DNA of 64,000 nt from Amia ocellicauda (Eukaryota > Chordata > Actinopteri > Amiiformes > Amiidae): positions 9,407,357 through 9,471,356 of the forward strand of contig NC_089863.1 in assembly GCF_036373705.1 (NCBI RefSeq), in the 5' to 3' direction. The translations under genes were made by a program, and so were the position numbers. Below, in pieces: positions 188-55,446 of the stretch. The stretch's first letter is position 1; the number at the start of each line of letters is the position of its first letter. Under the pieces are notes generated by a model that did no database searches, was not told the DNA's origin, and worked only from the letters and a program-made list of their open reading frames with translations.

Positions 188-503
188 TCAAACAATGGTG
201 ACAGTAGAGTACACAGTGGTCGTATCCTTTGTCTCCTGCTCAGCTCTGGGTGTCCAGCAGAGCAGAGCTGCAGTTTTGGAGATGTTCTGACCCAGTAGTC
301 TAGCCATCACAATGTGGCCCTTGTCAAAGTCGCTCAGATCCTTACGCTTGCCCATTTTTCCTGCTTCTAACACATCAACTTTGAGGACAAAATGTTCACT
401 TGCTGCTTAATATATCCCACCCACTGACAGGTGCCATGATAACGAGATTATCAGTGTTATTCACTTCACCGGTCAGTGGTCATAATGTTATGGCTGATCA
501 GTG
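188..503 (-). mobile_element. Tc1/mariner transposon remnant (one end plus transposase N-terminus)
   Basis: Read on the minus strand, the element tip starts at 503 next to a TA target (504-505) with the terminal repeat CACTGATCAGCCATAACATT, common in fish Tc1 elements. The 5' leader follows, then an ORF from 373 whose first residues include [19 protein letters not shown] and ISKTAALL, the start of the paired-like helix-turn-helix of Tc1 transposases. Similarity is lost after about residue 40: the ORF runs out of frame and the DDE domain and second terminal repeat are missing. This is a dead, truncated copy. Confidence 0.8.
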
Positions 504-8306: not shown

Positions 8307-9347
8307 TCACTCCTTCTCTTTTTTCTCCTCTGCTGTCCTGACCTCCTTCTCCTCCCCGTCCTCTCCCCCCTTCCCCTGGTCCCCCTCGGCCTCACCCTCT
8401 TTCTCCTTTTCTCTCTCCGTCTGCCCCCTGCCCTCCCTTTCTCCCTCTGCCACCCCCTCTCCCTTCCTCTCTGCCTCCCCCTCCCCCTCTCCTTCTCTCT
8501 TTCTCTCCCTCTCTCCCTCCATCCCTGTCAGCAGCTCAACCAGTCTCTGAAACTTGTGCCCCCAGTCCTCCAGCTCCCCGCCTTCTCCTCCTCCTCTCTC
8601 TCCTCCCTCTCTCTCCCCTTCCTGCTCCCCCTCGCTGCCCAGGGAGCTGAGAGACCCCGCCCTCGAGCCCTGACCTTCGAACCCGTAGATCTGCACCGAG
8701 TCATATGGTGGCTGGGAGGGGTCAGCGGTCACCTGGGCCAGCCGCAGCCTCAGGAACTCGCCCACCCTGAATGAGAGAGAGACGCCGCCCTCTCTCTCTG
8801 CATCCCTGCCCCCTCCTCCTCTGTCCCACCCCCAGGCCACCGCCCCCTGCGGCCCCAGGGTGGCGGTCCTGCTCTGCCCTGGGTGGGGTAAGAGCTGGGG
8901 CAGAATGTCCCTTCGCCCCCATCCGTAGCCCCGGTCCAGAGCCTCCCGCCAGTCCGCCAGGAAAGTAGTCCCCTCAGGAAACAGGCAAGGTGTCCCGGTC
9001 AGAGAGATCCCTCCGCCCCCGGCTCCGCAACAGCCCACTGCCGTCGTCACGGCGACCTCCCCCACGCCCCCCCACTCCGGCTCGGGGAACGGCCCGTGAC
9101 AGGGGCGGGGGGGCAGGGGGGAGGAGGAGGAGGAGGAAGAGGAGAGGAGGAGGAGAGCGGGGTTGGGGTGCCAGGGAGGGGGCCGGGAGGGCAGCGTCGC
9201 GGAAGGGTCGCCCCCCGAGAGGAGGTCAGGGTGAGGAGGTGGAGGCGGAGGTGGAGGTGGGGGAGCGGCGCTGGTGCTGGGCTGGGAGGTTCCAGATTGA
9301 GATCTGGAGGGACTGGACCCAGATTGGACCTGACTGTAGTTCTGGTT

Positions 9348-9386
<39 letters not shown>

Positions 9387-12300
9387 GTGGGGGGTTAATA
9401 TAGACACAGTCATTGTTCTCTGTGGCTTACTGAGTGTGGGGAGAGGGACAGACAGGCACTGTGTCTCACCCAGTTCTGACCCGGCTCAGAGGCTCTGGCC
9501 CGGCTCTGGCTCTGGTCATGGTTCCAGTCCCACTCTGCCTTCCCGGCTGCTGCAGTGCCGTGGGGCTGATTCTGGTCGGTCACCTTCCCCTGTGGTTCTG
9601 GACCGCCGTCATTGCAGGCCCGGACTGGTTCTGCACCGGACGGATTCTGGAAGACCAGGCAGGAGTCCATCTGCAGGGGGTACAGGTGCCCTGGCGGGGG
9701 GGGGCCGCGGGCCAGTCTCGGTGCCGGCAAGGTGTGGCTGCTGTAGGGAAGGAAGCGACCATACACAGATCCGGGCCGGGCCCAGAGCGCCGGGCTCTGC
9801 TTCAGGGTCTGGCTGTGCTGCGGGTATCGACCGTCCACTGTGCGGTACCTGAGACACAGAGCAAGTCAGTCAGTCAGTGTGTCAGTCAGTCAGTCAGTGT
9901 GTCAGTCAGTCAGTCAGTGTGTCAGTCAGTCAGTCAGTGTGTCAGTCAGTCAGTGTATCAGTCAGTCAGTCAGTCAGTGTATCAGTCAGTCAGTCAGTGT
10001 GTCAGTCAGTCAGTCAGTCAGTCAGTGTGTCAGTCAGTCAGTCGGTGTGTCAGTCAGTCAGTGTGTCAGTCAGTCAGTCAGTGTATCAGTCAGTCAGTGT
10101 GTCAGTCAGTCAGTCAGTCAGTCAGTCAGTCAGTGTGTCAGTCAGTCAGTCAGTGTATCAGTCAGTCAGTGTATCAGTCAGTCAGTCAGTGTGTCAGTCA
10201 GTCAGTCAGTCAGTCAGTGTGTCAGTGTGTCAGTCAGTCAGTCAGTCAGTGTGTCAGTCAGTCAGTCAGTCAGTGTATCAGTCAGTCAGTCAGTGTGTCA
10301 GTCAGTCAGTCAGTCAGTCAGTGTGTCAGTCAGTCAGTCGGTGTGTCAGTCAGTCAGTCAGTCAGTCAGTCAGTGTGTCAGTCAGTCAGTCAGTCAGTCA
10401 GTCAGTGTGTCAGTCAGTCAGTCAGTGTATCAGTCAGTCAGTCAGTCAGTGTATCAGTCAGTCAGTGTGTCAGTCAGTCAGTCGGTGTGTCAGTCAGTCA
10501 GTCAGTCAGTCAGTCAGTCAGTGTGTCAGTCAGTCAGTCAGTCAGTGTGTCAGTCAGTCAGTCGGTGTGTCAGTCAGTCAGTGTGTCAGTCAGTCAGTGT
10601 GTCAGTCAGTCAGTCGGTGTGTCAGTCAGTCAGTCAGTCAGTCAGTCAGTCAGTCAGTGTGTCAGTCAGTCAGTCAGTCAGTCAGTCAGTGTGTCAGTCA
10701 GTCAGTCAGTGTATCAGTCAGTCAGTCAGTCAGTGTATCAGTCAGTCAGTGTGTCAGTCAGTCAGTCGGTGTGTCAGTCAGTCAGTCAGTGTGTCAGTCA
10801 GTCAGTCAGTGTATCAGTCAGTCAGTCAGTCAGTGTATCAGTCAGTCAGTGTGTCAGTCAGTCAGTCGGTGTGTCAGTCAGTCAGTCAGTCAGTCAGTCA
10901 GTCAGTGTGTCAGTCAGTCAGTCAGTCAGTGTGTCAGTCAGTCAGTCGGTGTGTCAGTCAGTCAGTCAGTCAGTCAGTCAGTCAGTCAGTGTGTCAGTCA
11001 GTCAGTCAGTCAGTCAGTCAGTGTATCAGTCAGTCAGTGTGTCAGTCAGTCAGTCGGTGTGTCAGTCAGTCAGTCAGTCAGTCAGTCAGTCAGTGTGTCA
11101 GTCAGTGTGTCAGTCAGTGTGTCAGTCAGTCAGTCAGTCAGTCAGTCAGTCAGTCAGTCAGTCGGTGTGTCAGTCAGTCAGTCAGTCAGTCAGTGTGTCA
11201 GTCAGTGTGTCAGTCAGTGTGTCAGTCAGTCAGTCAGTCAGTCAGTCAGTCAGTCAGTCAGTCAGTGTGTCAGTCAGTCAGTCAGTCAGTGTATCAGTCA
11301 GTCAGTCAGTCAGTCAGTGTGTCAGTCAGTCAGTCAGTCAGTCAGTCAGTCGTGTGTCAGTCAGTCAGTCAGTCGTGTGTCAGTCAGTGTGTCAGTCAGT
11401 CAGTCAGTCACTCAGTGTGTCAGTGTCTCACCAGCCAGTGTGTGGGTGTGTGTTGGTGTGGGGGCCGGCGTGTGCATGGGGGCGGGGGGGGTGCTGCAGG
11501 GCGGCCATGTCGAAGGCAGCGGTGTCCTCCTCGCCCCCCCCCTCATCGTCATAGCTGATGATGTTCTCGCGCACGTCCTCCTCCTCCCCCCCAGACAGGC
11601 CATCACGCTTCTGCCCCCGCAGGGACACAGACAGAGCGCACACTGCTGAGAGAAGGTGGGGGGCAATGGAGGTTAATACAATTATTCTATAACACTACAA
11701 TACAATACTGACTGACTGACTCCCCCCCCCCCCTCTCTCCCTCTCTCTCTCTCCCTCTCCTGTCCCCCAGGGTCATACCCAGCAGCGTGGCGATGCAGGC
11801 CAGTATAGCCAGCAGGGCGGCGGTACTGAGTCCAGCAGAGGGGGAGGAGGAGGGCAGGGGCAGGCAGGCCGTCTGTCCGTCCAGCTGTCCCCCACGGCTC
11901 CGCCCCCGGCCCCGCCCTACGCCCCCAATGCAGGGACACACAGACACAGTGACCGTCCCGGTGGTGGCCAGCTCGGGGGTCCCCTTGTCTCGCAGCACCA
12001 CGGGGACACGCAAGGACTGGGAGGGGGGCAGTGAGGACAGCGGGGACAGCAGCACCAGAGTGGCCATTGCACCTGAGGGAGAGAGGGGGAGGAGAGAGAG
12101 AGAGAGAGGAAGATTAGCATTAGTAGCAGTAGTAGCAGTAGTAATTGCAGTAGAGTGCAGTAGAGTGCAGTACAGTGCAATACCTCCAGTCTCTCTCACA
12201 CTGAAGTTCAGGGCCATGCTGGACTCGGCTGCAATGCTGAACTGCACCTGAGAGCCATTCCACCCGGAGTCCCTGTCTACTGCCCTCAGCATCTGGACAA

Positions 12301-14235
12301 CCTGAGAGAGAGGGAGAGAGGGAGAGGGGGATTAATACAGAGCCTAAAATAGACCACAGAGAGAGTGTCAGTGTCTTAGTCGATGTGTCAATGTCTCTGT
12401 CAGTGTGTCAATGTCTCAGTCAGTGTCTCAGTCAGTGTCTCTGTGTCTTAGTCGATGTGTCAATGTCTCAGTAAGTGTCTCAGTAAATGTCTCAGTCAGT
12501 GTGTCAGTGTCTCAGTCAGTGTGTCAATGTCTCAGTCAGTGTCTCAGTCAGTGTCTCAGTAAATGTCTCAGTCAGTGTGTCAGTGTCTCAGTCAGTGTCT
12601 CAGTGTCTCAGTCAGTGTCTCAGTGTCTCAGTCAGTGTCTCAGTCAGTGTCTCAGTAAATGTCTCAGTCAGTGTGTCAGTGTCTCAGTCAGTGTCTCAGT
12701 GTCTCAGTCAGTGTCTCAGTCAGTGTCTCAGTAAATGTCTCAGTCAGTGTGTCAGTGTCTCAGTCAGTGTGTCAATGTCTCAGTCAGTGTCTCAGTGTCT
12801 CAGTCAGTGTGTCAATGTCTCAGTAAGTGTCTCAGTCAGTGTCTCAGTAAATGTCTCAGTCAGTGTGTCAGTGTCTCAGTCAGTGTGTCAATGTCTCAGT
12901 CAGTGTGTCAGTGTCTCAGTCAGTGTGTCAATGTCTCAGTCAGTGTCTCAGTCAGTGTCTCAGTAAATGTCTCAGTCAGTGTGTCAGTGTCTCAGTCAGT
13001 GTCTCAGTGTCTCAGTCAGTGTCTCAGTCAGTGTCTCAGTAAATGTCTCAGTCAGTGTGTCAGTGTCTCAGTCAGTGTCTCAGTGTCTCAGTCAGTGTGT
13101 CAGTGTCTCAGTCAGTGTGTCAATGTCTCAGTCAGTGTCTCAGTCAGTGTCTCAGTAAGTGTCTCAGTCAGTGTGTCAGTGTCTCAGTCAGTGTCTCAGT
13201 GTCTCAGTCAGTGTGTCAGTGTGTGATGCTGACCTCCCCAGGCTGGGCAGAGTCACAGAGGGCGGTGCTGTACTCAGTCTCCAGCTCGGGGGGATTGTCG
13301 TTGACGTCCAGTGTCTCTATGGCAACCAGGACACGGGACATCTGAGAGGGGCTGTCTGTCACCGAGACAACACCACGACATAAATGACAACAATAAGAAT
13401 AAGAACAATAACAATGATGATGATGATAATAATAATACTGTACTGTAACTGCTATTCCTCTCAGCAGCTATAACGATATTTCTCTCGGTTGCCATGGCAG
13501 CATCTTTTTACCGGTTGCTATGAACAATACTCTCCATCACTTTCTAATGGTTGCTATAACGACAGTGCCATACCTCTCTCAGTTGCTATGACAGTGATGT
13601 TGTGCCACTCCTCCGCCTCGCGGTCCAGCTCGGCTGCAGTGGTGATGACCCCGCTGTCAGCGTCGATCCGGAACAGAATCTCGGGGTCAGACTGGGGGTC
13701 AATGGAGTACCTGAGAGAAATAGGGGGAGAGGGCGAGTCGGTTATTGATTACAGCAGGGCACTGATTGGGGTGCATGTAATGACGAGTGATTGATTACTG
13801 ATTATTGGTAACTGCTCCTTGATTCATTATTACTGATGACTGATTATTCCTCATTGATTACGAATTGTTGATTGTTGATTACTGTTTATGCTTTATATTT
13901 TATACAGATTATTGATTATTGATGACTGCCGAGTGATTGTTGATCACTGATGATCGGTGCCTAGAGTCTGCAGTACCTTATCCGACTGGGTCTGGCAGAG
14001 TCGGGGTCAGTGGCGCTGACCCGGCCAGGAGAGGCAGGCGGGGGCGTGTTCTCGGGCAGCGCCAGGCGGTACCGGGCCCGGGAGAAGCGGGGCGGCTCGG
14101 GGGCGTCCAGAACCAGCACTCGCACGCTGGCCCGGTCCTTGAAGGGCCCACGGCGCAGGTACAGAGGGTCAACCCAGGAGTTCAGAACTTCGACCCAGAA
14201 GGAGTACGAGCTGCGAGACTCATAATCCAGCTCCT

Positions 14236-14387: not shown

Positions 14388-17300
14388 GTGATGGGAACAG
14401 CTGATCGCATCACTGGAACACACGGCACACCTCCGTCTCGCTCCCTCGCTCTGCCTCTCTGTGTTGCTCTGTCACTCTGTCATTTCCACTGAGATCAAAC
14501 ACACATCAACACCACCACCCCCCCTCACAGCACAGTGTTATAATACAGCTGGCCCTCCTCCAAGGAATTTAATACTTTGTGGGATTAATAGGGATACGCG
14601 AAATCTCCCGTAATTACTTAGATATATCGATTTCTTGATCCACTCATGAATAGAAAATCCCACCTATATTCTACATGAATTAAACATGTGAAATCATAAA
14701 CATAATGACATTCACATACAATACCCTGCACCTGCATTATGATGTGACTGCGTTTTACTGTATCACTCAAAGTGACAAGAATACAGAGACTGTACAGCAC
14801 CGCGAGTAACACGGTCACAGCGTCCGCAAGACTGAGGGAGAGGAAGATCAGAGGGGGAGAAAGGGAGTGAAAGATGAGAGGGGGAGACGTGGCAGAGCTG
14901 CAGAGATGGAGATTGCTTGTGAGGTTCGAGAGCGAACATGCGGCAGCATGTTGGGTGAGCCGCGCATATTTGAATTTTCCGCTCCCGGAATTGGATAATT
15001 TGGTCGCATTTCATCTTGAGCGTATAACCGAATCTGCGCTGGAAGATCACAGATTGGAGGAGAGTTTACTGTAATGTATATAATTCAGTGTGTCAGTCAG
15101 TCAGTCAGTGTGTCAGTCAGCTAGTCAGCTAACTCCAAAATCTCTCTCTCTCTCTCTCTCACTCGGGTCAGGGTGATGACAGCCTCCTCTTGGTTCAGTC
15201 CGGTGATGTTGAACGGGCCGCCCCCCTCGCCCTCGGCGATGACGTATTCCAGGCGGGCGTTGTCCCCAATGTCAGCATCAGTTGCCGAGAGACGGCCAAT
15301 CTCTGCCCCCGGCCTGGCCAGCTCTGATACTGAGAATGACCACACACCTGAGAGAGAGAGACAGAGAGGAAAAGAGAGAGAGAGAGTGTTATTATGGAGT
15401 TAATATAGAGAGACTAACTGACTGTCTGCCTGGACACTATGGCATTTGACCACTGCACTGAGAGAGAGAGACAGAGACAGAGAGGGAGACAGAGAGAGGG
15501 AGAGACAGACAAGGGGGAGACAGAGAGAGGTAGGAAAGGAGAGGGAGACAGAGAGGGAGGGACAGAGACAGAGAGAGGTAGGTACAGAGAGGGAGACAGA
15601 GCGGGAGGGACAGAAAGGGAGACAGCAAGAGGAAGGGACAGAGACAGAGAGAGAGGGACAGAGAGAGGGAGACAGAGAGAGGTAGGGCCAGAGGGAGACA
15701 GAGAGAGGGAGGGACAGAGAGAGAGGTTGACAGAGAAAGGTAGGGACAGAGAGGGAGGGACAGAGAGGGAGGGAGAGAGGGGTGCAGGGAGATGCCTGGT
15801 GTAGCTGAGAGCGATTTCTCCAGCACTGATTTTACTGCCTATCCAAGCAGAAAGGACTGAACTTTAGATGAAATATTAATAAAGAGAGAGAGGGGGAGAG
15901 AGAGAGAGAGAGAGAGAGAAATAGGAAAGTATTAAACGCTAGTATGTCCAGTGTTCCATGAATAATAATAATAATAGTTATTAACATTATAATTATAATT
16001 ATAATTATTATTATAATAACAGCCATGGTATATGTTATTTACAGTTGTTTATTACTGGTCAGAGACGTGGAGGGAGGGAGGGAGGGGTAAACAGCCACAG
16101 GGCTTTACGGAGAGAGAGAGAGAGCGAGGGAAGGAACAAGGGATAAACAGAGAGACGGAGAAAAAAATAAGTGACAGAGAGAGAGAGATTCAGTTGAGCC
16201 TCAGGACAATATTAGAGACAGGGAGGACAGGAGAGAGGAAGGAAGGAAGGAAGAGAGAGAGGGGGAGAAGAGAGGGAGAAGAGAGGGAGGGATGGGCACC
16301 AAGGGGAAGCAAGAAAGGCAGCAGGGAGGGAGGAAGACAGTGGGGAATACTGCTGTCACTTCTTTCTGAGACACTCGTTTAACAGCATATTTTGCTCTCC
16401 CTCGCTTCCTCTTGCACACTCTCTCTGATTCTCTCCCCATTCTGTTATCTCTCTCTCTCTCAGGGCAGATTAAGCATCCTCTATCAGTCCCCTTCTCTCC
16501 TCTCTCTGTTTCTCTCAGAGGACACGATGCCCCCCTCCCTCTGTTTCTCCCTCTATATTCCCTGTACCTCTCTGACAGGCACTTTTTCTCTCACACACAC
16601 GTGCACGTAGACACACTAACACACTCTCACTCACGAACACACAACACACAACACACACACCCACACCACTGCACTGACTCTGAGTGAAGCGTGGGGGATT
16701 GTCGTTGACGTCACTCAGGGACACTGTGACCGTGGTTGTCCCTGACAGCCCCCCCAGGTGCCCCCCCATGTCCTTGGCCTGCAGAACGAGCAGATAGCGG
16801 TCCTGTGTCTCCCGATCCATGCTGGGCACTGCAGTCCGCACCACTCCTGTGGGAGAAAGAGAGAGAGAGGGAGAGGGAGAGAGGTTAGAATAGACAGACA
16901 AGGAGGGAAGGACAGACACACAGTCAGTCAGTGTGTCAGTCAGTCAGTGTCTCAGTGTGCCAGTCAGTCAGTCAGTGTGCCTGTCAGTGTCTCAGTGTGC
17001 CAGTCAGTCAGTCAGTGTGCCTGTCAGTGTGCCTGTCAGTCAGTGTGGCAGTCAGTCAGTGTGTCTGTCAGTGTCTCAGTGTGCCAGTCAGTCAGTGTGT
17101 CAGTCAGTCAGTGTCTCAGTGTGCCAGTCAGTCAGTCAGTCAGTGTGTCATCAGTGTGTCAGTCAATCAGTGTCTCAGTGTGCCAGTCAGTCAGTCAGTG
17201 TGTCATCAGTGTGTCAGTCAGTCAGTCAGTGTGCCTGTCAGTGTCTCAGTGTGCCAGTCAGTCAGTCAGTGTGCCTGTCAGTGTGCCTGTCAGTCAGTGT

Positions 17301-20300
17301 GGCAGTCAGTCAGTGTGTCTGTCAGTGTCTCAGTCAATCAGTGTCTCAGTGTGCCAGTCAGTCAGTCAGTGTGCCTGTCAGTCAGTCTGTCTGTCAGTGT
17401 GGCAGTCAGTGTGCCTGTCAGTCAGTGTGCCAGTCAGTCAGTCAGTCAGTGTGCCTGTCAGTCAGTCTGTCTGTCAGTGTGGCAGTCAGTGTGCCTGTCA
17501 GTCAGTGTGCCAGTCAGTCAGTCAGTCAGTGTGTCATCAGTGTGTCAGTCAATCAGTGTCTCAGTGTGCCAGTCAGTCAGTCAGTGTTCCTGTCAGTCAG
17601 TCTGTCTGTCAGTGTGGCAGTCAGTGTGCCTGTCAGTCAGTGTGCCAGTCAGTCAGTCAGTCAGTGTGTCATCAGTGTGTCAGTCAATCAGTGTCTCAGT
17701 GTGCCAGTCAGTCAGTCTGTCTGTCAGTGTGGCAGTCAGTGTGCCTGTCAGTCAGTGTGGCAGTCAGTCAGTGTGTCTGTCAGTGTGTCAGTCAGTGCAT
17801 CAGTGAGGCTAAACAGGGATGGAGGGATGGACAAACCGGTCTGCGGGTCAACAGAGAAGTATGGCTGGCCCTGCAGCAGGGTGTAGACGAGCCGTGCGCT
17901 GTTCCCATAAGCCGGGTCATCAGCGTCCGTTGCAGTCACCTGGATTATAGATGTACCTGAGAGAGAGAGAGGAGAGAGAGGGAGAGAGAGTTATTATGGA
18001 TTTTATCGACGGAAATACTGACTGACTGACTGTCTCTCTCTCACTCTTCTGTCCGCATCTCATTTCTTCCTCCCTCTCTCTACCTCCCTCCCTCCCTCTC
18101 TCTCTCTGTCAGCTTTGTCTGCGGTATCACAGCCCTAGTCTAGAGGAAGATGTTTATCTGATTACTCTCATGAATTAGTCAGAACGGCAACATTTAGCCT
18201 AAAAACACAGGAATTCCAGGAACCAAAGGGAAAATGTTGAGGTTAAAAAATAAATGAAAAAAAACTACATTTCCCATGGGGCACTGCCTGTCAGCTCGGC
18301 TGGGCAGGGGATTGTGGGAGCAGCTGTTGCGGCTTCTGACATCAAAGTGTTGACGAAGAGAGGCAAAGAGGGACATGGGGAGGGAGGGAGGGAGGGAGCG
18401 AGAAAGAGGGACACCAAACGAAATATTTAGATACACAGTGATTCATATTTATAATCTCTTTTTTTGCAGTACCCACAGTTGCCACCATGCAGGATGGTGG
18501 TGCTGGAGAGCCCAGTTTTAGATACAGAGAGAGAGGAGCACAGACAGACAGACAGACACAGGCAGACAGACACACAGACACACAGGCAGGCAGACACACA
18601 GACAGACAGAGGGCTCAGCATGAGCAGCAGCATTCTCAATAGCAGTGCTGATCTTCCACAAAGAGCACAACGCAGCACCAGAGCCAGAGCGGCCTCCTGC
18701 CCAGCCACAGCCACACCCCACTGGACAGGGACTGACCACTGAACCCTGACACACCCTACTGGACAGGCACTGACCACTGACCACTGAACCCAACCACACC
18801 TTGCTGGACAGGCACTGACCACTGACTACAGCCACACTGTGCTGGACAGGCACTGACCACTGACACAGCCATACTGTGCTGGACAGGTACTGACCACTGA
18901 CACAGCCACACCTTGCTGGACAGGTACTGACCACTGACACAGCCACACTGTGCTGGACAGGTACTGACCACTGACACAGCCACACCTTGCTGGACAGGCA
19001 CTGACCACTGACCACTGACCCCAACCACACCCTACTGGACAGGCACTGACCACTGACCCGAACCACACCTTGCTGGACAGGCACTGACCACTGACACAGC
19101 CACACTGTGCTGGACAGGTACTGACCACTGACCACTGAACCCAACCACACCTTGCTGGACAGGCACTGACCACTGACTACAGCCACACTGTGCTGGACAG
19201 GTACTGACCACTGACCCGAACCACACCTTGCTGGACAGGCACTGACCACTGACACAGCCACACTGTGCTGGACAGGTACTGACCACTGACCACTGAACCC
19301 AACCACACCTTGCTGGACAGGCACTGACCACTGACTACAGCCACATTGTGCTGGACAGGTACTGACCACTGACCACTGAACCCAACCACACCTTGCTGGA
19401 CAGGCACTGACCACTGACTACAGCCACACTGTGCTGGACAGGCACTGACCACTGACACAGCCACACTGTGCTGGACAGGTACTGACCACTGACACAGCCA
19501 CACCTTGCTGGACAGGTACTGACCACTGACACAGCCACACTGTGCTGGACAGGTACTGACCACTGACACAGCCACACCTTGCTGGACAGGCACTGACCAC
19601 TGACCACTGACCCCAACCACACCCTACTGGACAGGCACTGACCACTGACCCGAACCACACCTTGCTGGACAAGCACTGACCACTGACACAGCCACACTGT
19701 GCTGGACAGGTACTGACCACTGACACAGCCACACCTTGCTGGACAGGCACTGACCACTGACACAGCCACACCTTGCTGGACAGGCACTGACCGCTGACTA
19801 CAGCCACACCTTGCCTGACAGGCACTAAGCACAGACACCTTGCTGGACAGGCACGGACCACTGAGCACTGAGCACAGACCAGAGACAGACCCTGCTGTAA
19901 AGACACTGACCACTGACCACAGATACATCTTGCTGGACAGGAACTAACCACTGACAAAGCCACACCTTGCTGGACATGACACTATGTCTACTGTGCGTAC
20001 AATAATGTTAGCACTGGACGGGCCTGGCAATGCTTTGGCAACACTGATACCAATAAAGCTTTTGGAAATTTGAATCTGACACAGACAGACACAGACACAG
20101 ACACAGGTACAGACACACACACAGACACAGACACAGACACATAAAGATAGACAGGGACAGAGACAAGCCTAAAGAGATAGCCCTTTCCCTGCATTACCAA
20201 TGTTGGCCATCTCGGGGACGGTGGCGCTGTAGGGCCCATCGGGGAAGACCGGCGCGTTGTCGTTGATGTCCTGCACGCGCACAACGAAGGTCGAGGCGGG

Positions 20301-22963: not shown

Positions 22964-23805
22964 CCCTTGCTCCTCCTCACTATCTTTCTAATCTTTTCTA
23001 ATCTTATCCGCCCAGGGAAAAGTGAGAATTAGTTTCTCGCTCTCCCATCAATCTTGCTCCTTCTCTCCTTCTCTCTCTCTCTCAGTGCAGTGTTCATGTC
23101 AGTCACTCAGCCAGTCAGTGTATCAGTCAATCAGTTAGTGTATCAGTCAATCAGTTAGTGTATCAGTCACTCAGTATATCAGTCACTCAGTCAGTCAGTC
23201 AGTGTGGCAGTCAGTCAGTGTGTCAGTCAGTCACTCAGTCAGTCAGTCAGTGTGTCAGTCAGTGTGTCAGTCACTCAGTCAGTCAGTCAGTCAGTCAGTC
23301 AGTCCGTGTGTCCTTCAGTCAGTTAGTCATTCAGTCTGCCAACCAGTTAGTCAGTGTGTCAGTCAGTCAGTCAATGTATTGTGTCTGTATTTACCCCCCT
23401 GTCTGTCGGTCTCTCTCTCTCTCACTGTGTCTCTTTATGCTTACACTAAATCTGTTAAAAAGAGACAGAGCGAAAGGGGGGGTGATGGGCAGAGTGAGGG
23501 GGGGAGAGGGAGAAAGAGAGAGTGAGAAACAGATTAAGATAAAAGCAAGAAATTACATTAATGCAGAGATAGATAGAGAGGGGGAGATGTAGAGATTAAG
23601 AGCAGAGGGAACTGAGGGAGGGAGGGTGAGAGAGGGAGCCCACCAAGACACAGCCAGTTAAATGGAGAGAGGGATGAGTGGAGAGATTGCTGGGGGATAA
23701 GAGATAATCCTCCCATCAGAGAATAGGAGGAGGGATAGGGAGAGTGGGGTGGAAAGAGAGAGAGGGAGGGAGAGGGGGCAGAAGAGGTAGAGGAAGAGGG
23801 AGAGT

Positions 23806-23995
23806 TAGTAGAGACAAACTCACTGCACACTACAGTACATTAGCACTGCACTGAAAGAGAGAGAGAGAGAGGTGGGGGTCAATACACAGTGCTGTCGTTC
23901 TCGGTGACCCATTTCTCTCCTGAACACAGAGTATAAACTGTGAATGTAATCTCAATACAGTGTGATCACAATATTGACACTGAGACACCAACTGA
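23806..23995 (-). repeat. Dispersed repeat sharing a 61-bp satellite monomer and a 110-bp unit
   Basis: 23806-23860 is a single monomer of the 30-33.7 kb satellite in reverse orientation (ACTACAGTACATTAGCACTG, then CACTGAAAGAGAG). 23870-23995 matches 54568-54690 near an nrl exon, with shared blocks GTGACCCATTTCTCTCCTGA and CAATACAGTGTGATCA. Confidence 0.75.
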
Positions 23996-28319: not shown

Positions 28320-29880
28320 ATCTATATACACCTGGAGTACACACACTGTACTGTAGATATACACCTGGAGTACACACTGTACTGTATATATACACCTGTA
28401 CTACACACACTGTACTGTATATATACACCTGGAGTCCACACACTGTACTGTATATATACACACCTGGGGTACACACACTGTACTGTATATATACACCTGG
28501 AGTACACACACTGTACTGTAAATATACACCTGGAGTACACACTGTACTGTACATATGCACCTGGAGTCCACACACTGTACTGTATATATACACCTGTACT
28601 ACACACACTGTACTGTATATATACACCTGGAGTCCACACACTGTACTGCATATATACACCTGGAGTCCACACACTGTACTGTACATATACACCTGGAGTA
28701 CACACTGTACTGTATATATACACCTGGAGTACACACACTGTACTGTATATATACACCTGGAGTACACACACTGTACTGTATATATACACCTGGAGTACAC
28801 ACACTGTACTGTATATATACACCTGGAGTCCACACACTGTACTGTACATATACACCTGGAGTCCACACACTGTACTGTATATATACACCTGGAGTCCACA
28901 CACTGTACTGTATATATACACCTGGAGAACACACACTGTACTGTAGATATACACCTGGAGTCCACACACTGTACTGTATATATACACCTGGAGTACACAC
29001 ACTGTACTGTATATATACACCTGGACTACACACACTGTACTGTATATATACACCTGGAGTACACACACTGTACTGTACATATACACCTGGAGTACACACT
29101 GTACTGTATATATACACCTGGAGTACACACACCATACTGTATATATAAACCTGGAGAACACACTGTACTGTATATATACACCTGGAGTCCACACACTGTA
29201 CTGTATATATACACCTGGAGTACACACACTGTACTGTACATATACACCTGTACTACACACACTGTACTGTATATATAAACCTGGAGAACACACTGTATTG
29301 TATATATACACCTGGAGTCCACACACTGTACTGTAGATATACACCTGGAGTACACACACTGTACTGTATATATACACCTGGAGTACACACACCATACTGT
29401 ATATATAAACCTGGAGAACACACTGTACTGTACATATACACCTGGAGTACACATACCGTACTGTATATATACACCTGGAGTACACACTGTACTGTATATA
29501 TACACCTGGAGTACACACACCATACTGTATATATAAACCTGGAGAACACACTGTACTGTATATATACACCTGGAGTACACACACTGTACTGTATATATAC
29601 ACCTGGAGTACACACACTGTACTGTACATATACACCTGTACTACACACACTGTACTGTATATATAAACCTGGAGAACACACTGTATTGTATATATACACC
29701 TGGAGTACACACACTGTACTGTATATATACACCTGGAGTACACACTGTACTGTACATATACACCTGTACTACACACACTGTACTGTATGTATACACCTGG
29801 AGTACACACACTATACTGTATATATACACCTGGAGAACACACTGTACTGTATATATACACCTGGAGTATACACTAGACTA
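28320..29880 (+). repeat. 33-bp minisatellite
   Basis: About 45-48 units of TATATACACCTGGAGTACAC then ACACTGTACTGTA, with variants (GTACTACA, GTCCACAC, AACACACTG). The same unit in inverse orientation forms the array at 63510-64000. ORFs on both strands (YIYSTVC and IHLEYTHC repeats) are artefacts. Confidence 0.95.
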
Positions 29881-30084: not shown

Positions 30085-33000
30085 CTCTCTCTCTCAGGGC
30101 AGTGTTAATGTACTGTAATGTCCAGTCAGTCAACGCTCAGATCAACTCCCTGGCCTCGCTCTCCTTCTCACTCTTGGATTGTCTCTCCATCCCTCTCAGG
30201 GCAATATTAATGCACTATACTGTCAGGTCAGTCAATCACTCACTCTTTTTTATTCACAACCCCTTCCCCTTCAGTGCAGTGTTAATGTGCTTTAGTGTTC
30301 AGTCAGTGTGTCTGTATTAACCCTCTCTCTCAGTGCAGTGTTAATGTGCTGTAGTGTTCAGTCAGTGTCTGTATTAACCCTCTCTCTCTCAGTGCAGTGT
30401 TAATGTGCTGTAGTGTTCAGTCAGTCAGTGTCTGTATTAACCCTCTCTCTCTCAGTGCAGTGTTAATGTGCTGTAGTGTCCAGTCAGTGTCTGTATTAAC
30501 CCTCTCTCTCTCAGTGCAGTGTTAATGTGCTGTAGTGTTCAGTCAGTCAGTGTGTCTGTATTAACCCTCTCTCTCTCAGTGCAGTGTTAATGTGCTGTAG
30601 TGTTCAGTGTGTCTGTATTAACCCTCTCTCTCTCAGTGCAGTGTTAATGTGCTGTAGTGTTCAGTCAGTGTGTCTGTATTAACCCTCTCTCTCTCAGTGC
30701 AGTGTTAATGTGCTGTAGTGTTCAGTGTGTCTGTATTAACCCTCTCTCTCAGTGCAGTGTTAATGTGCTGTAGTGTCCAGTCAGTGTGTCTGTATTAACC
30801 CTCTCTCTCTCAGTGCAGTGTTAATGTGCTGTAGTGTTCAGTCAGTCAGTGTCTGTATTAACCCTCTCTCTCAGTGCAGTATTAATGTGCTGTAGTGTTC
30901 AGTCAGTGTGTCTGTATTAACCCTCTCTCTCAGTGCAGTGTTAATGTGCTGTAGTGTTCAGTCAGTGTGTCTGTATTAACCCTCTCTCTCTCAGTGCAGT
31001 GTTAATGTGCTGTAGTGTTCAGTCAGTGTGTCTGTATTAACCCTCTCTCTCTCAGTGCAGTGTTAATGTGCTGTAGTGTTCAGTCAGTCAGTGTGTCTGT
31101 ATTAACCCTCTCTCTCAGTGCAGTGTTAATGTGCTGTAGTGTTCAGTCAGTGTGTCTGTATTAACCCTCTCTCTCTCAGTGCAGTGTTAATGTGCTGTAG
31201 TGTTCAGTCAGTCAGTGTCTGTATTAACCCTCTCTCTCTCAGTGCAGTGTTAATGTGCTGTAGTGTCCAGTCAGTCAGTGTGTCTGTATTAACCCTCTCT
31301 CTCTCAGTGCAGTGTTAATGTGCTGTAGTGTTCAGTCAGTGTCTGTATTAACCCTCTCTCTCTCAGTGCAGTGTTAATGTGCTGTAGTGTTCAGTGTGTC
31401 TGTATTAACCCTCTCTCTCTCAGTGCAGTGTTAATGTGCTGTAGTGTTCAGTCAGTGTGTCTGTATTAACCCTCTCTCTCTCAGTGCAGTGTTAATGTGC
31501 TGTAGTGTTCAGTCAGTGTGTCTGTATTAACCCTCTCTCTCTCAGTGCAGTGTTAATGTGCTGTAGTGTTCAGTGTCTGTATTAACCCTCTCTCTCTCAG
31601 TGCAGTGTTAATGTGCTGTAGTGTCCAGTCAGTGTGTCTGTATTAACCCTCTCTCTCTCAGTGCAGTGTTAATGTGCTGTAGTGTTCAGTCAGTGTGTCT
31701 GTATTAACCCTCTCTCTCAGTGCAGTGTTAATGTGCTGTAGTGTTCAGTCAGTGTGTCTGTATTAACCCTCTCTCTCTCAGTGCAGTGTTAATGTGCTGT
31801 AGTGTTCAGTCAGCGTGTCTGTATTAACCCTCTCTCTCTCAGTGCAGTGTTAATGTGCTGTAGTGTTCAGTCAGTCAGTGTCTGTATTAACCCTCTCTCT
31901 CTCAGTGCAGTGTTAATGTGCTGTAGTGTTCAGTCAGTCAGTGTGTCTGTATTAACCCTCTCTCTCTCAGTGCAGTGTTAATGTGCTGTAGTGTTCAGTC
32001 AGTGTGTCTGTATTAACCCTCTCTCTCTCAGTGCAGTGTTAATGTGCTGTAGTGTTCAGTCAGTGTGTCTGTATTAACCCTCTCTCTCTCAGTGCAGTGT
32101 TAATGTGCTGTAGTGTTCAGTCAGTCAGTGTCTGTATTAACCCTCTCTCTCTCAGTGCAGTGTTAATGTGCTGTAGTGTTCAGTCAGTCAGTGTCTGTAT
32201 TAACCCTCACTCTCAGTGCAGTGTTAATGTGCTGTAGTGTTCAGTCAGTCAGTGTCTGTATTAACCCTCTCTCTCTCAGTGCAGTGTTAATGTGCTGTAG
32301 TGTTCAGTCAGTCAGTGTCTGTATTAACCCTCACTCTCAGTGCAGTGTTAATGTGCTGTAGTGTTCAGTCAGTCAGTGTCTGTATTAACCCTCTCTCTCT
32401 CAGTGCAGTGTTAATGTGCTGTAGTGTTCAGTCAGTGTGTCTGTATTAACCCTCTCTCTCTCAGTGCAGTGTTAATGTGCTGTAGTGTTCAGTCAGCGTG
32501 TCTGTATTAACCCTCTCTCTCAGTGCAGTGTTAATGTGCTGTAGTGTTCAGTCAGTGTGTCTGTATTAACCCTCTCTCTCTCAGTGCAGTGTTAATGTGC
32601 TGTAGTGTTCAGTCAGTCAGTGTCTGTATTAACCCTCTCTCTCTCAGTGCAGTGTTAATGTGCTGTAGTGTTCAGTCAGTGTGTCTGTATTAACCCTCTC
32701 TCTCTCAGTGCAGTGTTAATGTGCTGTAGTGTTCAGTGTGTCTGTATTAACCCTCTCTCTCTCAGTGCAGTGTTAATGTGCTGTAGTGTTCAGTCAGTCA
32801 GTGTGTCTGTATTAACCCTCTCTCTCTCAGTGCAGTGTTAATGTGCTGTAGTGTTCAGTCAGTGTGTCTGTATTAACCCTCTCTCTCTCAGTGCAGTGTT
32901 AATGTGCTGTAGTGTCCAGTCAGTCAGTGTGTCTGTATTAACCCTCTCTCTCTCAGTGCAGTGTTAATGTGCTGTAGTGTTCAGTCAGCGTGTCTGTATT

Positions 33001-33676
33001 AACCCTCTCTCTCAGTGCAGTGTTAATGTGCTGTAGTGTTCAGTCAGTGTCTGTATTAACCCTCTCTCTCAGTGCAGTGTTAATGTGCTGTAGTGTTCAG
33101 TGTGTCTGTATTAACCCTCTCTCTCTCAGTGCAGTGTTAATGTGCTGTAGTGTTCAGTCAGTGTGTCTGTATTAACCCTCTCTCTCTCAGTGCAGTGTTA
33201 ATGTGCTGTAGTGTTCAGTCAGTCAGTGTCTGTATTAACCCTCTCTCTCTCAGTGCAGTGTTAATGTGCTGTAGTGTTCAGTCAGTGTGTCTGTATTAAC
33301 CCTCTCTCTCTCAGTGCAGTGTTAATGTGCTGTAGTGTTCAGTGTGTCTGTATTAACCCTCTCTCTCTCAGTGCAGTGTTAATGTGCTGTAGTGTTCAGT
33401 CAGTCAGTGTCTGTATTAACCCTCTCTCTCAGTGCAGTGTTAATGTGCTGTAGTGTTCAGTGTGTCTGTATTAACCCTCTCTCTCTCAGTGCAGTGTTAA
33501 TGTGCTGTAGTGTTCAGTCAGTGTGTCTGTATTAACCCTCTCTCTCTCAGTGCAGTGTTAATGTGCTGTAGTGTTCAGTCAGTCAGTGTCTGTATTAACC
33601 CTCTCTCTCTCAGTGCAGTGTTAATGTGCTGTAGTGTTCAGTCAGTCAGTGTCTGTATTAACCCTCACTCTCAGTG
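30085..33676 (+). repeat. 61-bp satellite carrying a 3' splice-site-like module per unit
   Basis: About 59 head-to-tail units of CAGTGCAGTGTTAATGTGCT, GTAGTGTTCAGTCAGTGTGT, CTGTATTAACCCTCTCTCTCT. Unit length varies (about 57-65 bp) through the number of CAGT and CT repeats. Each unit contains TATTAAC, then (CT)n, then CAG. Single diverged monomers in reverse orientation occur at about 15400-15470, 23806-23860, 44490-44555 and 53232-53292. Confidence 0.95.
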
Positions 33677-35122: not shown

Positions 35123-38527
<3,405 letters not shown>

Positions 38528-41829: not shown

Positions 41830-42290
41830 GACCATTCCTAGCTTCATCTAGTTAGAGCTCATCTGGATAATGTGTACAGTTCTGGAGAGGAATGGGAATG
41901 TCCTACTGAGAGACTGAGGAACTGAACCTTTTCACCCTGGAACAGAGGAGACTACGTGGGGACTTGATCCAAGTCTTCAAAATCATGAAGGACATCGACC
42001 ACATCAAACCAGAGGAGCTTTTCCAGATCAGCAGGGACACACGCACCTGGGGACACAAATGGAAATTGGGCTTCAAGGCATTCGAGACAGAAAACAGGAG
42101 ACACTTCTTCACACAGAGAGTCGTCACAATCTGGAACAAACTCCCCAGCGATGTGATAGAAGCTGAAAATTTGGGGACATTTAATAAAAGACTGGATAGG
42201 ATCCTTGGATCACTCAGTTATTAATGGACACCAAACGAGCACGATAGGTCGAATGGCCTCCTCTCGTCTGTAAACTTTCTTATGTTTTTA
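41830..42290 (+). mobile_element. CR1-like LINE fragment: reverse-transcriptase C-terminus and 3' tail
   Basis: The plus strand encodes LRGDLIQVFKIMKDIDHI, then SRDTRTWGHKWKL, then RRHFFTQRVVTIWNKLPSDV, the C-terminal part of CR1/Rex-type LINE reverse transcriptases. It stops at 42224 and passes into a tail with CCAAACGAGCACGATAGGTC, then GAATGGCCTCCTCTCG. A piece of the same tail in reverse orientation is near 5699-5740. Truncated at the 5' side. Confidence 0.75.
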
Positions 42291-42801: not shown

Positions 42802-44901
<2,100 letters not shown>

Positions 44902-47417: not shown

Positions 47418-48250
47418 GCCTGTCACTTCCTCTCTCTCTGTCCCTCTGTCTCTCTGTCTCTGTCCCTCTCTCCCTCCCTCTTTTTCTCTCCCCCTCACTT
47501 TCTCTCTCTCTCTCTCCCCCTCTTTATTTTTCTGAGAATCGTGGGAGATAAAATCCCAGTGTCATAGGAATCCATAATCTTATCTCCTTGACAACAGTCA
47601 CCAGGCAACTGTCACCCTACTGCTTCGGCATTCCACCTGTCCTCATTTTCCTGTCCTCCTTTTCTTCCCTCCTTCCCTCTGCTTCTCTCCTCTTTCTGTG
47701 TTGGAATGTTAAGTTCACTGACTGGCTGACTGACACACTGACTGACTATCTGATTGACTGACACATTGACTGACACACTGACTGACTGACTGACACACTG
47801 ACTATCTGATTGACTGACACATTGACTGACACATTGACTGACACACTGACTGACTGACTGACACACTGACTGACTATCTGATTGACTGACACACTGACTG
47901 ACTGACTGACACATTAACTGACTGACTGATTGACTGACTGATTGACTCACACACTGACTGACTGACACACTGACTGACTGAATGACTGATTGACTGACTG
48001 ACACACTGACTGACTGACTGATTGACTGACACACTGACTGACTGACTGATTGACTGACACTCTGACTGACTGACTGACATACTGGTAACAATTTTTACAA
48101 TATGTCTCTCTAGTCACAGTGTACTAACATAGTAGGTAATCAGTAACTACATCCTAGTTACTCATAAGAACAGTGTAATTATGCATTTCTTAATACACAA
48201 TAACAACACAGACACAATAAACTGAGGGAGTCCGAGTTTTTCAGAATTTC
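45765..48250. other. Intergenic between mdp1 and rem2: microsatellites and short repeats
   Basis: No gene recognised. Contains CT-rich tracts 46075-46140, CA-rich 46390-46565, GA 46585-46700, CAGT repeat 46795-46970, CT 46990-47038, a reversed retroelement-like tail 47235-47310, CT 47378-47414, and a TGAC/ACTGACTG repeat 47715-48085. Confidence 0.6.
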
Positions 48251-48798: not shown

Positions 48799-50265
48799 TC
48801 AAACAGAGCTCAGGTCGTGGCAGGAGCGAGACTTCTGTCGGCAGAAGCGGCCAGAGGAGGCGCTGTGGTGCCGCGGCAGCAGGCTGGACAGGAAGCGCCT
48901 GGCCCTGCTGGTCAGGCTCTTCCTCCGGCCCCCCAGCCCGGGCCCCGTACCCCCCTCCACCCCGCCACCGGCCGTGCCCCCTGCCCCGCCCCCGGCCCCA
49001 GGTCGCCGTGGAGTCCAGCCCCGGGCGCAGCGCACGGCCCCCTGCAGGAGCTCGGTGACGCGGTGGTCCAGCGAGGCAGAGAGCTCCACGTACTGACAGT
49101 CAAAGAGCGCGGCACTGGACTGGGCCTCTGAGGGAGAGAGGGAGAGAGGGGTGTTAAAATACTGACTGACTGACTGACTGACTGACTGGGAGACACACTG
49201 ATTGACTGACTGACTGACTGACACATTGATTGACACACTGTTGGACACTAACTGACTGACTGACTGACACACTGTTTGACCGCCTGACTGTGTGTCTCAC
49301 CGTGGCCGCTGACTTCTCGTGACCTGACGAGGTCGCTCTTGTTGCCAGCGAGGATGATGGGTGTGTTGGGGTGTGACTCGCGGAGCTGCAGGCGGAGCTG
49401 GGCCGTGCGGTGGAAGCTTCGGCGATCTGTGACCGAGAACACGAGAACACACACGTCCACACGCAACAGAGACAGGTCCTACATGCAAAAGGGAAAGAGA
49501 GAGAAGTTAGTACACACTGACTGACACACACTGACTGACTGACTGACTGAGAGATGAAGAGGGATAATATGAGTGAGAAAATGCAGTGACAGGGAGAGAG
49601 AGGGATAGATTGACAGAGTGATAGAGAGAGTGTGAGAGGGGCAGAGCTCAGTGTGTCTACCTGTCTCCAGTTGTCATAGATGATGACGGTAACCTCCTCC
49701 TCGTCCATCATCACTGTGCTGACCATGCCATCCTCTGCAATTAAGCAATTAATCAATTAAGCAATTAAACAATCAACTAATAAAAGTATATTTAGTCCCA
49801 TTCAATATAGTACACACATACACACAAAGACACATACAGACATACAGACACACACACTCAGACACAATCAGTACCTGCAATGTTATCTGAGTCCACAGAC
49901 GCAGTTCTGTCGTTTCCCCCGCAGAGGGCGGTAGTGAGAGACGATTTTCCCACCCCGTTCTGCCCCAGCAGGGCGATCCGGACCGGCCCATCTGTGTTCC
50001 GGTCCAGGGTGGGCTGACAGTCTTCTCCTGCCGCCCCCTCTTGCTTCTCCTTTTCCTGCTCTCTCTCCCCCACTTTGGCCTCAGATGCCGGGGGAGTGAT
50101 GGTGTCTTCCAAGGCAGGGCTGACGCTGATTGGTGGTGGGGAGGGACCAGCGACATCCAGCGTCCAATCGCTGTCTTCAGACACAGCCTCCTCCCGCCTC
50201 AGCTGGTGCTTGATTGGCAGGGGAGTGCTACCTCGGCGTAGAGGGGGGGCGCTCGAGAGAGTCAT
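48799..50265 (-). CDS. rem2: RGK-family small GTPase REM2
   Basis: Ras-like RGK GTPase; family members bind calcium-channel beta subunits and reduce voltage-gated calcium current. Coding exons in transcript order: 50265-49875, 49734-49661, 49478-49301, 49127-48799; the sum is 972 nt (323 aa; human REM2 is 340 aa). N-terminal RRGSTPLPIKHQLRR resembles the REM2 14-3-3-type segment. P-loop GQNGVGKS is at 101-108. Switch II is YDNWRQ (150-155) in place of the Ras DxxG, as in RGK proteins (DxWE). NKSD is at 201-204 and ELSAS at 229-233. The basic C-terminus ends KSRSCHDLSSV, the diagnostic RGK tail, with no CAAX box. About 11 residues after switch II are missing relative to human. The ATG follows an acceptor at 50272, so a noncoding first exon is expected. 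REM1 and GEM are less likely from the N-terminus and synteny. Confidence 0.88.
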
Positions 50266-52494: not shown

Positions 52495-53340
52495 GTAACA
52501 TAATTCTCTCGACTCACCTGATACACGACAGAGAGCTTATATCCACTTCTGGTTCTCTCACCCTCCCTACCTCCCCCTCGTTCTCTCCTTCCCTCTCTCT
52601 CCCTCTCTCTCTCTGCATTATGAGTCATACAATGCGGACACCCAACCCAACAATATGCCACTACTTCTACCTCTAATATTATTATGACTTTTAATATTAT
52701 TATTATTATTAATTATTACTATCGAACAACATGGTTATATTGTTGCGTTTCAGAGGAATCGAGCGAGCGCCGCCAAATGAATAATCAATAGTAGCTATCG
52801 GTCAATCAAGGTGTCGGGCACTTGCAGTTGCCGGTCGCCGCCAGTGGGGGGAGCCAGCAGGATGTCATAGCGATGCAGTGGCTACACAGTTTCTGGGCAA
52901 CATCCGGGTCCTGCCGCCACTGACTTTATCAGCTGGAGTGGATTCAGCCCTGTTCATGGAGAACTACAGTGTGTGTGTGTGTGTGTGTGTGTGCTCATGA
53001 GTGTGTGGGTCACTCTGTGTCTCTCTGACCAGCTGACAACTAGGGGTTATTATGACCCTAATCTCCCCTTTATACTGCCAGAGAGGGAGAGGGGGGCAGG
53101 GAGCCAGAGAGAGCGAGAGCAGGAGGGGGGGGGCAGAGAGAGAGTGAGGTCATACTGGCCTGGATTCGCTGAAAGAGAGAGAGAAAGAGAAAGAGCGCTG
53201 GGGTCAAATAGCATTTCTATAGAGAGAGAAAGAAAGAGAGGGTTAAAACAGACACACTGACTGGACACTACAGCACATGAACACTGCACTGAGAGAGAGA
53301 GGGAGAAAGAGGGGGGGGGAGAGAGAGAGAGATGCACTTC
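52071..53340. other. Intergenic between nrl and rem2
   Basis: No gene recognised. CT runs at about 52265-52327 and 52425-52490, ATT-rich 52675-52720, GT run 52970-52992, and a single reversed satellite monomer at 53232-53292. Confidence 0.55.
53232..53292 (-). repeat. Single dispersed monomer of the 61-bp satellite
   Basis: GGGTTAAAACAGACACACTG, ACTGGACACTACAGCACATG, AACACTGCACTGAGAGAG aligns over the full length with the reverse complement of the unit at 30085-33676. Confidence 0.8.
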
Positions 53341-53844: not shown

Positions 53845-55446
53845 TCATAGGAAGTAGTCCGGGGGGGAAGGGGCGCGGTTGCTGTGGGTGACGGGGCGCT
53901 CGTTAGTGGAGATCAGTTTGTCGTAACGAGCCTTGTAGGCGTCTCTCTCCCTCAGCACCCGCGACAGCTCACACTGCAACTGCTCCAGCTGAGAGAGAGA
54001 TGGGTTAGTACACACTGGCTGACTAACACACTCACTGACTGACGGACACACTGACTGACTGACACACTCACTGACTGATTGACACACTGACTGTTACACT
54101 GACTGACTGACACACTGACTGATTGACACACTGACTGACTGTCCCTGTGTTTCTCAAATGCAGTGTTAGTATAGCAATACTGTCATGTTAAGTTGAGTTG
54201 ATGTTGTGTTGATGTTGTTTGCTGTGTTAATATTGTGTTGTTGTATTGTTGTGTTGATGTTGCGCCGATGTTGTCTTGATGTTGTGTTGTGTACCTGTTG
54301 TGCCAGCAGGCTCTTCTCGGACTCCAGGACGTGTCTCTGCTGGACGCGCTTGTGGCGGCAGGACTGCGCGTAGCCTCGGTTCTTCAGGGTGCGTCGGCGC
54401 TGTTTGAGGCGCAGCACCTCCTCCCGGCCCACCCCCCGCAGTACCCGGTTCAGCTCCCGCACTGACAGAGCCACCAGCTGCTCGTCAGAGAACTCCCCCT
54501 GCACCCCCCCACACTGTGAGAGAGAGAGGGAGGGAGGAAGAGAGAGAGAGAGAGGGAGGGAGAAGGAGAGAGGAGGATTAATACAGACACAATGTTGTGA
54601 TTGCTCTCTGTGACCCATTTCTCTCCTGAACACAGATTATAATCTGGGAGTTTAATATCAATACAGTGTGATCAAAATATTAACACTGACTGAGTGACTG
54701 TGTGTGTGAGTGTGTGAGTGTGCAGTTGTGCGTGCCCCTGGCACGTGAGTGTGTGTGTGTGTGTGTCTCATCGTTGTGCAGCTCTGACTGAGTGACAGTG
54801 ACAGTGAGAGGGATTATGCTCTGCAATAATAGAAATTATAATCTCTCTCTCTCTCTCTCTCCGTCCCTGACTGACTGTGTCCCAAACTGCCGCAGTACAG
54901 CTCAGCAGACCCTCTACTCTCTCTTTCTCTCTTTCCATCTCTCAGTCTCTCTGCCCTCCCTTCTTTCTCCCCCTCTCCTGTCTCTCCCTCTGTACCTGGC
55001 TGTAGCAGAGCTGCTGTTGATGATGATGGTGGTGATGATGAAGATGATGAAGGTGATGATGATGATTACTGAGGGGGCTGGGGGGGCCCTCGGCGGTCGC
55101 CCCGAGGGACAGTAGGCTGCTGCTGTTGCTGTGGTGATGCAGAGGCAGGGGGGAGGAGAGCAGGAAAGGGGTGGAGGAGGTGGAGGAGGAGGAGGAGGAA
55201 GAGGAGGAGGAAGAGGAGGCAGAGGGAGGCTGCTGCAGCGGGGGCGAGGTGAGGAAGAGGAGGGGCCGATGACACTGCTCCGATCTGTCCAGCCCCCCTC
55301 CCGCGCTGGACACTGGACCCCCCCCAGCACCAACGCAGCTGGAGTCTGGGGTCAACAGAGAGAACTGAGGGAGAGAGAGAGAGAGAAAGAGAGAGAGAGG
55401 GTTAATACAAACATAGAGACACACAGACAGGCACACACTATCACTG

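Follow-up and report, generated by a model that had tools for sequence, protein, structure and literature searches.

The window analysed here is the whole 64,000-nucleotide stretch of the Amia ocellicauda genome at C20:9,407,357-9,471,356, considered together with a scan of the full assembly (988 Mb, 385 contigs). It carries genes that we take to be cdh24, psmb5, mdp1, rem2 and nrl, following an earlier note on this DNA (mdp1 and a cadherin were checked by homology), with 22 annotated acceptors, every one on the minus strand. On the plus strand, at 30271-33672, lies a tandem satellite with a period of 61 and 56 copies by Tandem Repeats Finder (TRF). Its units resemble a 3' splice site, and single copies of the unit occur elsewhere in the window, where they were detected by the Basic Local Alignment Search Tool (BLAST), a hidden Markov model (HMM) and mismatch scans. 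The features that concern the satellite are as follows.

30271..33672, plus strand: satellite array with 56-57 units, 55-65 bp long, of the form TGCAGTGTTAATGTGCTGTAGTGT..(CAGT)..GTGTCTG-TATTAAC-(CT)n-CAG
30085..30270, plus strand: two longer, diverged edge units of the array, each starting after a pyrimidine-AG
15390..15470, minus strand: single monomer directly 5' of a cdh24 acceptor (BLAST, HMM)
15347..15349, minus strand: the cdh24 acceptor AG exon border, 15347 being the exon's first base
44494..44559, minus strand: single monomer directly 5' of an mdp1 acceptor (BLAST, HMM)
44479..44481, minus strand: the mdp1 acceptor AG exon border, 44479 being the exon's first base
53235..53303, minus strand: single monomer, 95.7% identical to the array unit over 69 bp, then a CT tract and CTATAG; exon unrecognised
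23795..23863, minus strand: single monomer, 85.5% identical, of the GTACTG form; exon unrecognised
23073..23395, plus strand: copy whose CAGT segment has grown to a minisatellite of ~276 bp, ending TGTGTCTGTATTTACC (mismatch scan, BLAST, TRF)

The array's consensus is TGCAGTGTTAATGTGCTGTAGTGTTCAGTCAGTGTGTCTG-TATTAAC-CCTCTCTCTCTCAG, in which a branch-point motif (TATTAAC), a pyrimidine tract ((CT)n) and an AG (CAG) follow one another in the order and spacing of a 3' splice site. Unit length steps by 2 bp because the CT and CAGT segments change length. The earlier note had described this same architecture in about 59 units; the architecture stands, and the count falls a little short of that figure, with 56 TATTAACC anchors and 57 core matches. 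No Rfam family matched in the window at gathering thresholds, and the satellite found no match in viral contigs (one 27-nt pattern) or in plasmids (one near search).

Five single copies lie in the window beyond the array, and two of them end at real acceptors. Joined cdh24 exons spanning the 15347 junction match Cadherin-8 (query 1-63, in a query with one residue mistyped), and joined mdp1 exons match MDP1 through the 44479 junction (E 1.3e-15); judged by these protein matches, which give no indication of age, both introns are real. The two reversed intronic monomers reported earlier at 15400-15470 and 44490-44555 are genuine, at 15390-15470 and 44494-44559, and the other three copies (53303-53235 and 23863-23795, minus; 23073-23395, plus) are additions to that list. 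Outside the array, a 24-nt core with up to six mismatches has four matches (reversed and 12 shuffled patterns, 0), a 17-nt core with up to three mismatches has five (controls 0), and the 16-nt branch-point context with up to three mismatches has nine (reversed 1, shuffled 0-2). A 17-nt core match at 35935 was rejected as a satellite copy, since it lies within a different tandem array. An HMM trained solely on copies from outside the window gave the four minus-strand copies 47.7, 35.0, 22.0 and 22.0 bits and the plus-strand copy 13.5, against a reversed maximum of 11.9.

Across the assembly a 27-nt core with up to three mismatches matches 2,487 times (1344 + 1143), and the exact core with two free positions 2,272 times (1223 + 1049), with no match to the reversed control in either case. 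Placement on chromosomes draws on about 100 matches listed, apparently sorted by mismatch and then by contig. Among these, the exact core occurs as three singles on C1, as two singles on C7, in arrays at two places on C8, and on C18 both in arrays and as two singles; judging by list order, it occurs on none of C2-C6 or C9-C17. Other searches add C20 and C333. Arrays on C20, again among the matches listed, lie at 9.0-10.2 Mb, with one more at 2.65 Mb. C333 is an unplaced contig of 8.6 kb that an array query matches over nearly its full length, which suggests that array placement in the assembly is incomplete. Both arrays and single copies sit within gene-rich DNA, as in euchromatic satellites. 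In the C20 regions and the window, HMM groups of at least five hits (34 real vs 5 reversed) could not serve to count arrays, since CAGT microsatellites form groups too, and of the small groups (194 real vs 74 reversed) only the high scorers were used (reversed maximum 7.1 bits).

What lies immediately downstream of these copies is central to their interpretation. The stretches read comprised 20 regions and five further edges on C20, five stretches of C18, and 14 of C1, C7, C8 and C18. They yielded 37 right edges of arrays with three or more units in view, with loose core matches excluded by eye (among them L013@5269, L014@6625, L014@6902, L014@7142, L021@6717, L025-@5450, L026-@3991). Nine of the 37 precede an exon confirmed by homology.

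TINF2_N exon, 2e-13
SH3 exon, 4.7e-12
Nop10p exon on C20 (L028), 1.1e-14
crystallin exon, 2.7e-12
Tim10 exon, 2.2e-11, with extra sequence between last unit and exon
LIM domain, matched through the junction, 8.7e-8
METTL3, matched through the junction, 1.4e-44
Nop10p exon on C8 (L076), 3.2e-15, with extra sequence between last unit and exon
NFAT exon, 2.6e-22, with extra sequence between last unit and exon

For the LIM domain and METTL3, exons joined past the last unit yield continuous proteins. A further 13 right edges precede an exon-like open frame (called by eye, without a control), some of them with a weak domain match (RanBP zinc ribbon, 0.0039; acyltransferase, 0.014; C-type lectin, 0.016) or a presumed gene name. 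In one intron (L022), 62 units fill all 3,765 nt from donor to acceptor, a GTCAG donor joining the first unit and the CAG exon border lying in frame; other array-bearing introns measure 698 nt, roughly 930 nt and roughly 2,020 nt, and the largest run of near-identical units in the arrays read reaches 66. Left edges vary among the arrays read. In a mettl3-type gene (L025 and L026, C20), sense arrays precede two separate exons, and a further array, antisense, starts at a donor; the last exons of the gene are confirmed by homology, and its first exons, like the gene at that donor, are presumably METTL3. Two nop10-like paralogues, L028 on C20 and L076 on C8, carry an array before the same exon, each built of its own chromosome's unit variant.

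Single copies outside the array show a similar placement. Seven singles with an exact core were read on C1, C7 and C18, and four of them stand before an exon or an open frame that looks like one: an ankyrin exon (L072, 4e-4), a Ras exon (L073, 2.6e-16, with additional degenerate units in between) and open frames after L069 and the minus-strand single of L081; neither follows L070, L071 or the plus-strand single of L081. In the C20 regions and window, 17 of 20 single-copy hits of at least 11.9 bits were read, leaving aside the window acceptors at 15399 and 44438 and the CAGT minisatellite at 17764 (plus). Eleven of the 17 precede exon-like frames, among them exons for CIDE-N (1.1e-7), TPR (3e-4) and MT-A70 (4.7e-11), and six, two of them in the window, do not.

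Comparison of units between arrays reveals both homogeneity and regional character. Among the 639 units of 22 arrays, 543 (85%) have the same 31-nt core, while three full-length variants of the unit are found in 22, 21 and 21 of these arrays; a common core and widely found variants are as expected of recent exchange. Chromosome-specific subfamilies are apparent in the stretches read: composite units on C18 and C8 read GTACTG, GTGTCC and TGTACTGTATTAAC, with an extra TGTACTG ahead of TATTAAC, whereas those on C20 read GTGCTG, mostly GTGTTC, and TGTATTAAC, and C1 carries a core-only form. The C18-like form is probably the older, because some diverged single copies on C20 carry it.

The core-only unit, CAGTGTTAATGTRCTGTAGTGTCCAGTCAGT(CAGT), measures 31/35 bp, is without the splice half and was found in five C1 stretches. 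Its 35-mer has 13,300 exact matches in the genome (6662 + 6638; overlap between neighbours is possible), against 0 for the control, and the first 100 matches listed are all on C1, from 60.59 Mb; the core-only region spans C1:60.6-62.9 Mb (L083-L093). Four of six right edges read end near an exon, with matches to COP9 subunit 7 (2.9e-6), to TNFR (1.8e-5, below the Pfam cut-off) and to enolase (5.4e-14), and with an open frame in L090, where the core unit passes straight into TGTATTAATCCCTCTC...CAG; the other two do not. Since core-only arrays end near exons and the L090 core runs into TGTATTAATCCCTCTC...CAG, the composite unit looks to be a core minisatellite that took in the adjoining intron end. 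The earlier suggestion that an intron end was amplified into a satellite gains support in this modified form, in which a 31/35-bp core appears joined to the intron end.

We therefore read the element, with a probability of roughly two in three, as a euchromatic satellite of intron ends, its unit having acquired an acceptor and spread regionally by DNA exchange, with the host introns remaining spliceable. The 61-70-bp unit would combine the 31/35-bp core minisatellite with the 3' end of an intron. As far as sequence can tell, arrays and single copies lie in sense orientation at the 3' ends of introns in a number of genes; there the host acceptor region would be the last unit's 3' half.

Spread of this kind might proceed by ectopic recombination, by gene conversion or through circles that reintegrate, with the exchange primed at the (CT)nCAG that units and many acceptors have in common. 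Insertion at an AG exon border would flank the new copy with (CT)nCAG and place a new acceptor next to the exon; with a fresh acceptor in that position the intron should still be spliceable, and the insertion, we propose, tolerated. The flanking direct repeats of (CT)nCAG would in turn permit tandem growth. Copies read are flanked on both sides by (CT)n(C/T)AG or similar, which is indistinguishable from a target-site duplication; no terminal inverted repeats were noticed by eye in these copies, without a systematic test. In a finished array the last AG would be chosen through exon definition, leaving the upstream AGs as decoys. Were splicing to use one of the consensus unit's upstream AGs, a stop would follow after 18, 43 or 8 nt, depending on phase; with a stop in every phase, a wrong acceptor choice should end in degraded or truncated products. 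In intron retention, decoy exons are a known theme.

A bolder version can be put forward tentatively, and falls somewhat short of an even bet: a selfish satellite, whose unit is a self-sufficient acceptor that replaces the host's own at the AG exon border, is thereby hidden from selection and colonises intron ends regionally. Were it true, genes of the mettl3, tinf2, nop10, nfat and LIM types would have some 8 to 62 competing acceptors per exon.

Several observations weigh against the intron-end satellite. Fourteen of the 37 right edges, the window's own included, are without a recognised exon and one of the 37 is antisense, so that placement at acceptors is no rule; the window array itself runs antisense to the annotated minus-strand genes, and no exon is recognised at its right end. 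The 13 exon calls of the weaker class rest on open frames, weak domain matches or presumed gene names, and the C20 regions were picked as strong array matches, the strongest rather than a random sample. Distinct unit variants number 92, and 69 of them belong to a single array, so each array has also diverged on its own. Within the window, enrichment at acceptors is weak: full monomers stand at two of 19 acceptors vs two of 127 other pyrimidine-AG sites (Fisher p = 0.08), both control sites adjoining one and the same monomer. Branch-point and acceptor roles of the units are predictions, and the exchange route is inferred, with RNA-mediated copying still a rival.

Of the alternatives, an origin by descent fares best and is nonetheless unlikely. 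Here an old monomer present at many intron ends would have been amplified in place and homogenised chromosome by chromosome through gene conversion, with little or no movement. The nop10 paralogues on C8 (L076) and C20 (L028) fit such a history, with an array before the same exon built of each chromosome's own unit, as do the diverged singles that are frequent in the C20 regions at exon-like acceptors. However, units in introns of different genes on one chromosome are far more alike than singles are to units, and the same 45 nt in unrelated genes could not have been inherited vertically, so some movement is needed.

To RNA-mediated spread we give slightly less credence still: spliced or lariat intron tails containing the unit would be reverse-copied or reverse-spliced into intron ends, in the manner of introners. 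Sense orientation with exact joining of AG to exon in part of the arrays would follow from it, and so would their variable left edges; a trans-acting RNA would not, however, predict that the near-identical units listed are regional and the subfamilies chromosome-specific, and the core-only arrays, which have no splice site, also lie near intron ends. An introner-like mobile module had been one of the two readings offered earlier. Copies do lie at the 3' ends of introns across a range of genes, which lends it some support; identity with introners is not supported, the unit having no donor and near-identical units being regional. The consensus, as read, contains nothing like a GTRAGT donor, and the donors in L013, L025 and L026 lie outside the array.

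Convergence on splice consensus plus microsatellite drift, the null hypothesis of the earlier note, is very improbable for monomers and arrays and was rejected for them, given that unrelated introns, with copies read on C1, C7, C8, C18 and C20, share some 45 nt of homology 5' of the branch point, and that reversed controls of the core patterns return 0; it is kept for 11 of the twelve window acceptors listed in that note, which are without robust extended homology by HMM, 15347 alone being robust. The motifs reported at these twelve are all present: TATTAAC at 9347, 11645, 15347 and 55364, TATTAAT at 12301 and 54513, TACTAAC at 49478 and 53988, and looser branch-point forms at 35406, 44181, 50271 and 49127.

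The 22 window acceptors were also compared by local alignment, setting the 130-nt stretches 5' of them against 830 minus-strand and 923 plus-strand control stretches. The branch-point context scores at least 20 in 6/22 acceptor stretches (15/830 minus, 6/923 plus controls) and the core at least 22 in 2/22 (6/830, 4/923). The linker scores at least 20 in 14/22 (98/830, 135/923) and at least 24 in 4/22 (42/830, 112/923), the higher threshold being common in controls because CAGT minisatellites score high. Robust HMM hits stand at two of the 22 acceptors (15347 and 44479, 22 bits each), and rem2 49127 (15.1 bits) and nrl 55364 (13.2 bits) are marginal against the reversed maximum of 11.9. Hits of at least 8 bits at eight of the 22 mean little, because the reversed window gives 54 against 69 in the real one.

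A shorter resemblance is nevertheless measurable. At 10 acceptors the 9 nt 5' of the branch point are closer to the unit than those at control heptamers are (mean 6.1 vs 3.9, n=286, p=1e-5), also when the controls are heptamers with a pyrimidine tract after them (6.1 vs 4.1, n=25, p=0.0035). Eight of the 22 acceptors have no qualifying branch-point motif and three of the other 14 no strong one, which leaves 11, and removal of one full monomer leaves the 10; at mdp1 44479 a different motif was picked, so that only one of the two full monomers stood among those 11. TG-richness close to branch points may also account for this resemblance.

Other features of the window touch the satellite less directly. 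An nrl intron within the bZIP region (53988-54300) ends with CAGT repeats, a TACTAAC motif and a CT tract; human NRL is not known to have an intron at that position, so this one may have been gained. Long minisatellites of CAGT/GTGTC type, in or near introns at 9864-11443, 12365-13222, 16921-17805, 42821-43900 and 47612-48094, look like the middle part of the satellite unit, expanded. Further tandem arrays lie at 28323-29873, 35933-36631 and 18721-19976, with periods of ~33, 57 and 37 bp. Two open frames presumably belong to transposable elements: one at 191-406 (minus) resembling the N-terminus of a Tc1-type transposase, and one at 41910-42221 (plus) resembling the C-terminus of a non-long-terminal-repeat retrotransposon.

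Satellites and introns have mostly been studied separately, and the bowfin satellite appears to supply acceptors to its hosts. Runs of up to 66 near-identical acceptors are ready material for asking how the spliceosome chooses among equals, and the sequence itself could explain why the spread of a satellite through genes is tolerated, making these arrays natural material for both questions. Human introns have reportedly been proposed, by Zhuo et al. in 2007, to derive from tandem arrays. No report of a satellite with an acceptor as its unit was found in the literature by title or start of abstract, in a search that mostly excluded subscription papers.

Among known systems, as described in the portions of the sources available, one of the closest in kind is the Drosophila 1.688-X satellite, whose short euchromatic arrays, introns included, are enriched on a particular chromosome (PMC7214746). 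The arrays here are likewise short, euchromatic and chromosome-biased; in contrast, they carry a splice site in the unit and are placed at acceptors, neither of which that portion describes for 1.688-X, and among the matches listed they cluster within a few megabases, a good part of them abutting exons. The Drosophila Y-loop genes kl-3, kl-5 and ks-1 offer a second parallel in introns that are largely satellite DNA (PMC7214746), yet those are megabase introns of simple repeats, whereas the introns here are 0.7-3.8 kb of complete acceptor modules. TCAST elements are satellite-like and lie near Tribolium genes in euchromatin (PMC3411249), resembling the gene-associated copies described here; splice-site content is not mentioned for them in the part of the source available. 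Introners, finally, are repeats that bring splicing signals into many introns (PMC9860276), a likeness that extends to the satellite, but they make whole new introns, whereas the unit here has no donor. The satellite could be viewed as a vertebrate counterpart of introners, one that reuses existing introns.

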